Source: a virus. Taken from it: DNA of 41,807 bases. The DNA is taken from IMG/VR virus record IMGVR_UViG_3300042539_001850, positions 1-41,807 of that record; one strand, 5' to 3'. The translations under genes and the position numbers were made by a program. Every line of letters starts with the position of its first letter. Position 1 is the stretch's first letter. The notes under the pieces were generated by a model that worked only from the letters and a program-made list of their open reading frames with translations, was not told the origin of the DNA and did no database searches. Below, piece after piece: positions 5,630 to 8,703 of this stretch.

Positions 5630-5652
5630 GTGGCCTAGAACATCTAGGCCAC
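5630..5652 (-). repeat. Intergenic leader hairpin, copy A
   Basis: Stem GTGGCCTAG/CTAGGCCAC (9 bp) with plus-strand loop AACAT, the only copy with T instead of C at the last loop base. It separates the ASCH gene from the 101-aa gene. On the minus strand it is followed by a run of seven T, so this copy could also attenuate transcription. Confidence 0.9.
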
Positions 5653-5663
5653 CGGATTAAAAA

Positions 5664-6086
5664 CTACTTTTCAGTAGGTGCATCATAATTCCATAATTTT
5701 AATTGGCCCTTGCAGGGAATAAACTTTTTGAAAACTTTTGGGTTTTCAAAGATCCAGCAATACGGCCCTACTATGATTTTTTGTTCCATGAATTCCTTTT
5801 GTTTTGGGAACTTTTTTAATGCTTCCTTTCTTGTTAAAATATCAACGAGTTCTACTGTACCTAGGATTACACCACTTGCATAGCGTAGCGTTTCATTTTG
5901 AACCAAATAACCAGAACCATCTTGTTCGTCAGAATCATCTTCAAGCCAGCTTGAATGTGGCTTTTTAGTGCCAGTATGGATAAGCAACGGCCCTCGATAG
6001 TCTGTTTCCCATCCTCTGTTTTCAATCTTTTTGTTGCCTTCCATGACCATGCCTGCCCACGGCTGTCTGATTGTTAGTGCTTTCAT
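5664..6086 (-). CDS. ASCH domain protein
   Basis: 140 residues. The N-terminus MKALTIRQPWAGMVMEGNKK followed by IENRGW and YRGPLLIHTG matches the ASCH fold (PUA-like RNA-binding superfamily), including its GxKxxExR-type signature (GNKKIENR). The end, GPYCWIFENPKVFKKFIPCKG, is typical of phage ASCH proteins. ASCH proteins are thought to bind RNA or modified nucleotides; YqfB-type members hydrolyse N4-acetylcytidine. Which activity applies here cannot be seen. The gene starts two bases after the stop of the zinc protein and has only a weak ribosome site, so translation is probably coupled. Confidence 0.85.
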   Translation of the reverse strand: MKALTIRQPWAGMVMEGNKKIENRGWETDYRGPLLIHTGTKKPHSSWLEDDSDEQDGSGYLVQNETLRYASGVILGTVELVDILTRKEALKKFPKQKEFMEQKIIVGPYCWIFENPKVFKKFIPCKGQLKLWNYDAPTEK

Positions 6087-6088
6087 TA

Positions 6089-6307
6089 TTATTTCTGCCC
6101 TTCTGTAAAAGTAATTCGTCCATCAAGTAAAACCTCTTCCATGCCACAAACACTTCGCTTGTCGCAAATATCACATCTTCTGCCTCTGGCATCTGGTTCA
6201 ATGCAATCGTTATGTTCTCCACAGGCGCAACATAGCCCAGCAGAATCTTCGCAAAGGTTTCTGTATTCACCCTCAGTCATCACAAAACGGCCTTTATTAA
6301 ATGTCAT
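6089..6307 (-). CDS. Small zinc-ribbon-like phage protein, 72 aa
   Basis: Contains two Cys clusters, LCCACG and RRCDICDKRSVCG, separated by EPDARG, which would bind one zinc ion. The string MTEGEYRNLCEDSAGLCCAC is characteristic of a small phage family of unknown function that I recognise from many unrelated phages. The start has AGGAG eight bases upstream and follows leader hairpin copy B. Confidence 0.75.
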   Translation of the reverse strand: MTFNKGRFVMTEGEYRNLCEDSAGLCCACGEHNDCIEPDARGRRCDICDKRSVCGMEEVLLDGRITFTEGQK

Positions 6308-6334
6308 CGCAAAAACTCCTAAAATTAGGTTAGA

Positions 6335-6359
6335 GATGGCCTAGAACACCTAGGCCATC
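6335..6359 (-). repeat. Intergenic leader hairpin, copy B
   Basis: Stem GATGGCCTAG/CTAGGCCATC (10 bp) with plus-strand loop AACAC. Relative to copies A, C and F, the G-C pair second from the outside is an A-T pair here, a compensatory change that keeps the stem. Confidence 0.9.
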
Positions 6360-6370
6360 GGATTAAAAAT

Positions 6371-6724
6371 TTACAATAGTTTTTGCACAGGTGGCTGATC
6401 TTCATCAACAAAAAATGGTTCTATGATTTCATCAAGATTCGTTGTGTAATCGGCAATTACCTCAGAGCCATCTTCAGCATTGCCATAGATAAATCTAACC
6501 CAAGCAAATCGTTCTAAGTGAAGTGTTGCAAATTGTGTTCTCCAGAAAACCAAAAGGTCTTCATCGGCTTGACGAACATTATCCATCAAATCTTTGACAT
6601 CTTGAGTTGGCTTTTCAAGTTCATAGGTATCGCCTCCATTGTTGATGTTTAAATAATATCCAGCTTTGATGGCTGCAAGAATAACTTTTTTAACTACGGC
6701 TGTTTCATTATCTTTTCTGCTCAT
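6371..6724 (-). CDS. Hypothetical protein, 117 aa
   Basis: I cannot assign a function. It is acidic and shows a helical N-terminus (DNETAVVKKVILAAIKAGYY), a NINNGGDTYEL strand region and a C-terminal FIYGNAEDGSEVIADYTTNL. Similar small proteins with a GYYLNINNGGDTYEL-like stretch occur in other phages as conserved hypotheticals. Start supported by GGGAG eight bases upstream; follows leader hairpin copy C. Confidence 0.65.
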   Translation of the reverse strand: MSRKDNETAVVKKVILAAIKAGYYLNINNGGDTYELEKPTQDVKDLMDNVRQADEDLLVFWRTQFATLHLERFAWVRFIYGNAEDGSEVIADYTTNLDEIIEPFFVDEDQPPVQKLL

Positions 6725-6758
6725 AACATAAACTCCCTTAAAAAACGGACTGAGAAAT

Positions 6759-6781
6759 GTGGCCTAGAACACCTAGGCCAC
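6759..6781 (-). repeat. Intergenic leader hairpin, copy C
   Basis: Stem GTGGCCTAG/CTAGGCCAC (9 bp) with loop AACAC. On the minus strand it is followed by TTTCTCAGTCCG and a T-run, then GGGAG and the ATG of the 117-aa gene. Confidence 0.9.
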
Positions 6782-7748: not shown

Positions 7749-7782
7749 TGTAAAACTCCGTTAAAAAAAACGAACTGGAAAA

Positions 7783-7807
7783 GATGGCCTAGAACACCTA
7801 GGCCATC
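7783..7807 (-). repeat. Intergenic leader hairpin, copy D
   Basis: Stem GATGGCCTAG/CTAGGCCATC (10 bp) with loop AACAC, the same A-T variant as copy B. The downstream minus-strand leader (CCAGTTCG, T-run, AACGGAG) has diverged slightly from the other copies. Confidence 0.9.
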
Positions 7808-7819
7808 GGACTTGAAAAC

Positions 7820-8311
7820 TTAAAAATAGTTGCCAATTATGTGATCAATTATTTCAAGATTTTTACAGATATCGATTTCGCCATCTTTCCATTTGTCATC
7901 GACATTAGCGACTTCATCAAGAAATTGACTGGCATCATCGCCTTGAATAAAAAGAGTTTTTTCGGGGTCAGATGATCGTGCAAAAAGTTCGACTCCGTAC
8001 CCTAAATCTTTGTAATCGAATCGGGGCGAATATACTTCGGGTTCGAGTTTTGGTTCGACAAAATGCGCTCTTGCAATTTGCACCCAATCAGTTTCTTGCA
8101 AAAAAGCTCTTGCGAAACTTTCTGCTAAGTTAATTTGATTTCTTGGCAAATCTTTGCATTGACTAGCAATCAATTCTTCGGCAATTTCTTGCATATGATT
8201 CGCTAGGTCAATTACAGTTTCAAAACCTTCAAATGGGCCGTAACCATCGAATAATTCAAGGTTAATTTTCCATGTCGCATAATTTGTCCAGCCGTTGTAT
8301 TCTTCGATCAT
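7820..8311 (-). CDS. NGWTNYATW-type phage protein (DUF7249-like)
   Basis: 163 residues. The N-terminus EYNGWTNYATWKINLELFDG carries the signature of a widespread phage family (NGWTNYETW) of unknown function, often annotated DUF7249. The rest contains a helical segment (residues 30-75) and an acidic C-terminal half. The start has AAGGAG nine bases upstream and follows leader hairpin copy E. Confidence 0.7.
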   Translation of the reverse strand: MIEEYNGWTNYATWKINLELFDGYGPFEGFETVIDLANHMQEIAEELIASQCKDLPRNQINLAESFARAFLQETDWVQIARAHFVEPKLEPEVYSPRFDYKDLGYGVELFARSSDPEKTLFIQGDDASQFLDEVANVDDKWKDGEIDICKNLEIIDHIIGNYF

Positions 8312-8341
8312 AACTAAACTCCTTAAAACGGATTGAGAAAA

Positions 8342-8366
8342 GATGGCTTAGAACACCTAAGCCATC
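8342..8366 (-). repeat. Intergenic leader hairpin, copy E
   Basis: Stem GATGGCTTAG/CTAAGCCATC (10 bp) with loop AACAC. Both an inner pair (C-G to T-A) and the outer A-T variant differ from copy F while pairing is kept, so this copy gives the best evidence of selection on the structure. Confidence 0.9.
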
Positions 8367-8387
8367 GGATTAGGAAATTATTTTTGG

Positions 8388-8648
8388 CTATCGCTTTTTC
8401 TTTTTAGATTGGCTTTTTTTTGTGCCTTCTTGTTTTAAAATTTCAAGGCAACGCTTGCAGCCAACTTTTGTTATGCCTTCAATTCTGGCCCAGTTGGTCG
8501 CTAGGGCTGGTGTGCCACAAACATTCCCGCTAAAGACTAATTCAAATCCATCTGTGCTGTGGGATCGGTATGCATGGCATTCGTTAGCCCAAACATTTCC
8601 CTTATTGCCATAGATGGTCGCACCTTTGATTTTTGTAATACTTAACAT
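8388..8648 (-). CDS. Hypothetical protein with CxxC and Lys-rich tail, 86 aa
   Basis: Not recognised as a named family. It has His/Cys pairs (ECHAYRSH, VCGTPA, GCKRCLEIL) that could bind zinc. It ends in a strongly basic tail (TKKSQSKKKKR) like that of the 41-aa basic peptide at 4634-4759. AAGGAG lies nine bases before the ATG; follows leader hairpin copy F. Confidence 0.6.
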   Translation of the reverse strand: MLSITKIKGATIYGNKGNVWANECHAYRSHSTDGFELVFSGNVCGTPALATNWARIEGITKVGCKRCLEILKQEGTKKSQSKKKKR

Positions 8649-8680
8649 TGCTAAAACTCCTTAAAACGGATTGAGAAAAT

Positions 8681-8703
8681 GTGGCCTAGAACACCTAGGC
8701 CAC
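8681..8703 (-). repeat. Intergenic leader hairpin, copy F
   Basis: Stem GTGGCCTAG/CTAGGCCAC (9 bp) with loop AACAC. It has the clearest consensus leader: hairpin, then ATTTTCTCAATCCGTTTTAA, then GGAGTTTTAGC and ATG on the minus strand. Confidence 0.9.

Follow-up and report, generated by a model that had tools for sequence, protein, structure and literature searches.

Stable hairpins that recur between cistrons are represented by the intercistronic C(UUCG)G hairpins of phage T4 and by bacterial REP elements. The PeSLs (promoter early stem-loops) of T4-type phages (Arbiol 2010, Comeau 2014, as cited in PMC4503421) are described in PMC4503421 as promoter-terminator cassettes that mediate gene shuffling. 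The ESAS of cluster K contain SigA-like promoters (PMC11373665), and the authors who first described them saw little evidence of pairing at the RNA level (PMC3203893). The gene 43 operator of T4/RB69 consists of a hairpin with a specific loop, located some 40 nt before the start, and a sequence overlapping the ribosome-binding site (RBS), and is bound by the repressor (PMC3014915). In the archaeal virus HGTV-1, repeated inverted-repeat motifs with a TATA-box precede most genes of one genome arm (PMC3950731). A literature search for a described phage class of intercistronic hairpins returned nothing direct.

The DNA analyzed here, referred to as the window, is a virus record of 41,807 bases with a 127-bp direct terminal repeat, and its mechanically called genes include a terminase, portal/head genes, an integrase, and a RecT-like protein. 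The best 80 terminase relatives from one-per-species bacterial genomes are nearly all titled Planctomycetota, Pirellulales, Thermoguttaceae or similar, and the best full-length match in those genomes is 43%. Judging from these distant terminase relatives, the host is probably a planctomycete. The operon 9474-5011 and all genes of interest lie on the minus strand (Table 1). The proteins encoded behind the cassettes described below were mutually unrelated in a family search; family matches were obtained for a DUF7249 protein, for a protein of coiled-coil-like type (weak matches) and for a relative of phrog_5680, none of known function. A PAPS-reductase-like gene adjoins a ParB-like gene (3873-4583, 3095-3931) between this accessory island and the terminase genes.

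The initial annotation described six near-identical copies of a hairpin leader in this operon, and all six were recovered on the minus (mRNA) strand. A 19-nt core with up to three mismatches has six minus-strand matches in the window, against 0.08 expected from shuffles, and the rest of the 41.8-kb genome has no copy of the core. The whole window contains 16 perfect stems of 9 bp or more, against 0-2 in eight shuffles, and the folding z-scores of the leaders range from -2.7 to -5.3. The stem has 9 bp (GUGGCCUAG) or 10 bp (GAUGGCCUAG), and the loop has the consensus RUGUU, with GUGUU in five copies and AUGUU in copy A. In the six-copy alignment 95% of cells pair. The paired stem changes that had been claimed are present: two pairs change on both sides, A-U/G-C at the base and C-G/U-A inside copy E, and no such pair is left when the partner is slid by 1-3 columns. 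The covariation is modest, as there are six related copies with two such pairs, and the observed score was reached by 7 of 500 shuffles.

Table 1. Features of the operon 9474-5011 and its borders in the window, with the distances that separate each hairpin from the neighboring genes.
Feature	Position	Strand	Hairpin	Stop codon to stem (nt)	Stem to AUG (nt)	Remarks
Promoter-like site	9543-9570	-				TTGATT-16-TATAAT; consensus match only, 10/12 positions; upstream of the operon
First operon gene (phrog_2554)	8716-9474	-				function unknown; no cassette in front, promoter-like site upstream instead
Cassette F	8649-8715	-	8681-8703	12	32	before gene 8388-8648
Cassette E	8312-8387	-	8342-8366	21	30	inner U-A for C-G; before gene 7820-8311 (DUF7249)
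Cassette D	7749-7819	-	7783-7807	12	34	before gene 6795-7748
Cassette C	6725-6794	-	6759-6781	13	34	before gene 6371-6724
Cassette B	6308-6370	-	6335-6359	11	27	before gene 6089-6307
ASCH-domain gene	5664-6086	-				no cassette; coupled to 6089-6307 across a 2-nt gap
Cassette A	5581-5663	-	5630-5652	11	49	loop AUGUU, U-rich 3' flank; between ASCH gene 5664-6086 and gene probably starting at 5580
Last operon gene	5011-5271	-				no cassette; 3-nt gap to upstream neighbor, coupled
Two strong terminator-like hairpins	4993-4959 and 4903-4871	-				long U-tracts; downstream of the operon

The copies sit between genes, as had been reported: the operon has eight internal gaps, six of them are occupied, and every cassette takes up its entire gap. 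The genes starting at 6086 and 5271, said to lack the element and to be close-coupled, are confirmed in both respects. Five copies have the stem 11-13 nt behind the stop codon, and five have it 27-34 nt ahead of the AUG. ARTCCG directly precedes the stem in every copy, and a linker motif CARTYCGTTT is found between the hairpin and the Shine-Dalgarno sequence (SD) in copies C, D, E, and F. The order given in the initial annotation, hairpin, CTCAATCCGTTTT-like linker, AAGGAG and ATG, holds as a layout, but neither the AAGGAG nor the linker is uniform. The SD is AGGAG-like but variable (CAGGAG, TAGGAG, AGGGAG, ACGGAG, AAGGAG), and the linker is matched exactly in E and F alone and closely in C and D, whereas it has diverged in A and B. 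It is most likely that copy A serves the start at 5580, which has a good SD (AGGAG), and not the ATG at 5607.

The likeness in concept to the stem-loop cassettes of T4-type phages, which had been pointed out initially, is supported. The PeSLs are likewise stem-loop cassettes repeated between small accessory genes and tied to modular gene shuffling; they are composite promoter-terminator motifs, whereas the window cassette has no consistent one and leaves no room between stem and SD. C(UUCG)G hairpins and REP elements differ in that no conserved linker with an SD, fixed in its distance to the following AUG, goes with them. The ESAS/SAS are similar in that an inverted repeat stands upstream of a conserved element that contains the SD, in front of some of the non-structural genes, in that the consensus varies between subclusters, and in their location mostly in large gaps (PMC3203893, PMC11373665). 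However, the ESAS are 17-bp imperfect repeats without RNA covariation, in contrast to the perfect, co-varying 9-10 bp stems of the window, and there is no sequence similarity between ESAS/SAS and the window; the SAS 13-mer GGGATAGGAGCCC is absent from the window start codons, the upstream sequences of which were read directly. The anatomy of the window resembles the gene 43 operator in combining a hairpin and an RBS-proximal sequence upstream of the start, but that operator belongs to a single gene and to autoregulation of the polymerase, while the window cassette precedes six genes of other kinds. The HGTV-1 motif is also an inverted repeat before genes, but it includes a promoter element and belongs to an archaeal virus. 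As far as the sigma-70 consensus tells, which may not be that of the host, the window cassette lacks the promoter found in PeSL, ESAS and HGTV-1 motifs; it resembles them in being a repeated leader, and no membership in these groups is claimed.

The initial annotation saw no promoter in the cassette, and this was borne out, as no sigma-70-like site recurs at the same place across the six copies. Promoter-like sites across the cassette region are at the level of shuffled sequences, as scored with the sigma-70 consensus, which may not be that of the host. The top scorer of the promoter scan is the site at 9570-9543; such matches are no commoner than in shuffles. Two ways in which folding of the leader might act on the SD were not supported. 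A second hairpin sequestering the SD is predicted in folds, but it is no stronger than those of shuffled linkers or control genes. Nor is there support for the hairpin as an insulator that keeps the RBS open, since predicted SD accessibility is not raised relative to shuffled hairpins (mean z -0.2); this comparison showed no gain in the window or in the related loci L011, L051, and L070, and a slight gain in L202. No match to any of 4227 Rfam models was obtained in 5000-9500 at E up to 1, and none at the gathering threshold in L051, L070, L011, L160, L178, and L180.

Several other repeats are present in the window. A second set of hairpins, two that resemble each other (ACTAGGTA...TACCTAGT), at 17164-17184 and 17432-17453 flanks a tRNA-like sequence at 17260-17332 (40 bits with the Rfam tRNA model, missed by ARAGORN), and one copy of the pair directly precedes the SD of the integrase; the region 17164-17453 is possibly the attachment-site region. 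A 141-bp duplication with 88% identity (17461-17601 / 18402-18542) lies in two neighboring HNH-endonuclease-like reading frames. An array of 12-bp repeats (GTTGGAGTAGGT-like) occupies 26326-26510 inside the reading frame 26164-27039, and the reading frame 27039-28523 contains an internal duplication with 74% identity (27484-27671 / 27697-27884).

The same cassette was searched for in other genomes. The exact core was not found outside the window in 2.9 million viral contigs (IMG/VR). A 15-nt core gave 30 single matches in unrelated contexts, consistent with chance. The covariance-model search suggested in the initial annotation was run over 50 sources (the window and 49 loci, 0.56 Mb), and only the window copies fell below E = 1; against two planctomycete genomes and three relatives, the model gave weak matches only, the best with E = 0.12. 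Thus, neither the exact-core scan nor the covariance model found the same cassette before different genes in other genomes, the observation that had been named as support for a mobile leader. No close relative spanning the accessory island was found. The contigs L007 and L008, whose terminase is 94% identical to that of the window, stop just short of the island border.

Relatives of the window were scanned for hairpins repeated within one locus and located upstream of SD-ATG starts. Among 121 terminase-, RecT- or genome-derived loci and 30 unrelated viral loci, the scan, which was tuned after the first examples had been seen and used control loci not matched in composition, returned only L011/L160, L051, and L070/L073 besides the window (L175 and L011 are a single contig). 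L051 (~54%) and L070 (~52%) are terminase relatives, and their hairpins also lie upstream of the terminase, in the same island; for L051/L050 and L070/L073 together, the terminase is 52-54% identical to that of the window. The hairpins are GGUUAACC-AWUUC-GGUUGRCC in L051, one of which is common with L050, and have the core GCCCA-AWUUC-UGGGC in L070, the AWUUC pentaloop being common to L051/L050 and L070/L073 on unrelated stems. The two L051 copies differ by a change from U-A to U-G that keeps the helix. Of eight AWUUC-loop hairpins in the family loci, seven have SD-AUG behind them, versus 0/4 in 1.37 Mb of controls; the seven of eight amount to about four independent hairpins because L050/L051 and L070/L073 are overlapping or near-identical contigs.

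Homologs of the first operon gene are found in L051 (43% over the alignment) and in L178-L180 (54-55%). In the surroundings of relatives of this gene, three further lineages with repeated hairpin leaders were seen: L202/L204/L207 with a UACG tetraloop (L202 at 8427 and 9448, L204 at 2813 and 3834, L207 at 5258 and 6279), L255 with three exact hairpin copies (8004, 8590, 9136), and L194. The distance from hairpin to AUG is alike across the unrelated families, mostly 27-34 nt. Since the relatives keep the architecture with different sequences, it is the structure and its location that have been retained. The shared layout points to a control element that can be reused between genes, as opposed to a chance product of a single genome.

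The motif CARTYCGTTT also occurs in accessory-island leaders of L178 (6838, 7453, 7882) and L179 (4938), the loci with the closest relatives of the first operon gene; it is once inverted, and the window hairpin does not accompany it. Intercistronic gaps of L178 (7078-7198) and L180 (4759-4889) each fold into two strong tandem hairpins, with differing sequences.

The loci L011 and L160, related to the window through RecT (39%), are 93.7% identical to each other over 6.5 kb. Each carries two cassettes about 520 nt apart, and the hairpin is the same within each genome and different between the genomes (GGGGCCUGG-CCAU-CCAGGCCCC in L011, GGGGCCUGG-AUAC-CCGGGCCCC in L160). Four identical substitutions distinguish L011 from L160 at both loci, and one change, from U-A to U-G, keeps the helix. 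The same four substitutions at both loci indicate that the copies were homogenized within the genome (concerted evolution), by conversion or exchange between copies, as independent mutation cannot plausibly give four shared substitutions. The strongest indication of cassette copying inside a genome comes from L011/L160; for the window, we infer such copying from the near-identical copies before unrelated genes. The mobile structured leader of the initial annotation, in which each gene would travel with its own leader, is supported in part. The leader belongs to the gap rather than to the gene, and its spread by recombination has a basis in the homogenized cassettes of L011/L160 and in the same architecture with other sequences in relatives, but transfer of this very cassette between phages is not supported by them.

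The six repeats are tentatively interpreted as one promoterless intercistronic RNA element, present six times on a single operon mRNA, that controls the downstream gene, most likely at translation. The stop codon is followed by about 12 nt ending in ARTCCG, the hairpin (9-10 bp, RUGUU), a U-rich linker of 27-34 nt with the SD, and the AUG, so that the hairpin stands close behind the stop codon of the upstream gene and close before the following RBS. The element would act on the mRNA and set the expression of the following gene, and a factor of the phage or the host may bind the hairpin and the RBS-proximal sequence, much as happens at the T4 gene 43 operator. Promoterless genes could then join the operon as modules that bring a start signal along, with recombination, shown in L011/L160 and presumed in the window, keeping the copies alike.

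An RNA leader is favored because the orientation is the same in 6/6 copies and the copies occur only in gaps ahead of genes that lack translational coupling, and also because of the paired stem changes and the U-G wobbles in relatives. Action at the mRNA level is indicated by the families, which keep a stable helix behind the upstream gene and the distance to the AUG, but not the sequence. The conserved loop and linker of the window, together with AWUUC in two relatives, lean toward recognition by a factor, while the changed loop of L160 and the UACG loop of L202 lean toward structure. The free variation of the loop between L011 and L160 argues against one conserved loop-binding factor. The ASCH protein was considered as a partner of the cassette; it is absent from the available fragments of the other cassette-bearing phages, and is not a consistent partner. 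Action at the RNA level is much more certain than either translational control or processing/stability taken singly.

With the two folding models unsupported and terminator character confined to three copies, mRNA processing or stability is left beside recognition by a factor; this processing/stability reading is rather unlikely. It holds that the hairpin caps the upstream message at its 3' end or the downstream message at its 5' end after cleavage in the AU-rich linker, and that messages of single genes decay separately, as with REP sequences and intercistronic hairpins in other operons. The distance of 11-13 nt between stop codon and stem in five copies speaks for this, as a pure start-site operator needs no such placement, although that distance may merely reflect a cassette that fills its gap. 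The AU-rich linker after the stem fits as well, and so do the families that vary loop and stem yet keep a stable helix, including the UACG tetraloop of L202/L204/L207; on the other hand, the stem is short for RNase III. A leaky terminator or attenuator that steps transcription down along the operon, possibly overcome by antitermination, is improbable. Copies A, E, and F do score as terminator-like, and copy A is followed by AUUUUUUU, but the other three (B, C, D) fail to score, and B is without any U-tract. This reading is weakened by U-tracts that are poor in all but one or two copies, and the real terminator candidates at the operon end, with 7-8 U, look very different from the cassettes.

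The discoverers of the cluster-K ESAS repeats proposed a DNA operator for them (PMC3203893), and a palindrome bound by a DNA-binding protein, with RNA pairing as a by-product, is quite improbable for the window. Symmetric palindromes would likewise keep paired changes, and one CAGTTCGTTT motif is inverted in L178; the single orientation with an asymmetric, conserved loop, the wobble pairs in relatives, the lack of a consistent promoter beside the copies, and the position fixed relative to the start codon all point away from it. It is very unlikely that the cassettes are only a recombination handle or selfish repeat, in which 60-75 nt of shared sequence around each gene let the phage recombinase swap genes with no role in expression. 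The homogenized copies of L011/L160, the RecT-like annealing proteins encoded by the window and by L011, and the unrelated genes behind the cassettes agree with such a handle, but it leaves unexplained why the hairpin stands at a similar distance from the AUG in relatives with unrelated sequences.

Beyond the control of the downstream gene by an RNA element in this operon, a broader proposal is put forward with more reserve. Promoterless hairpin leaders, identical within a genome through recombination and renewed between lineages, might be a general, convergent device of phages of uncultivated bacteria. Such phages may thereby give each accessory gene in an operon its own post-transcriptional start signal, which might be read by genome-specific RNA-binding regulators or simply by structure.

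Phages constantly gain and lose small accessory genes, which raises the question of how the new arrivals are expressed. A promoterless leader that is located in the gap rather than in the gene and copied within the genome would answer it for genes inserted into an existing operon. With sequence-unrelated families that have one layout, the question becomes testable with reporters. Because the families are unrelated in sequence and the same in layout, sequence or Rfam searches miss such elements, while a search for repeated hairpins before starts finds them. The cassettes add a regulatory feature for phages that probably infect Planctomycetota, a poorly known group.
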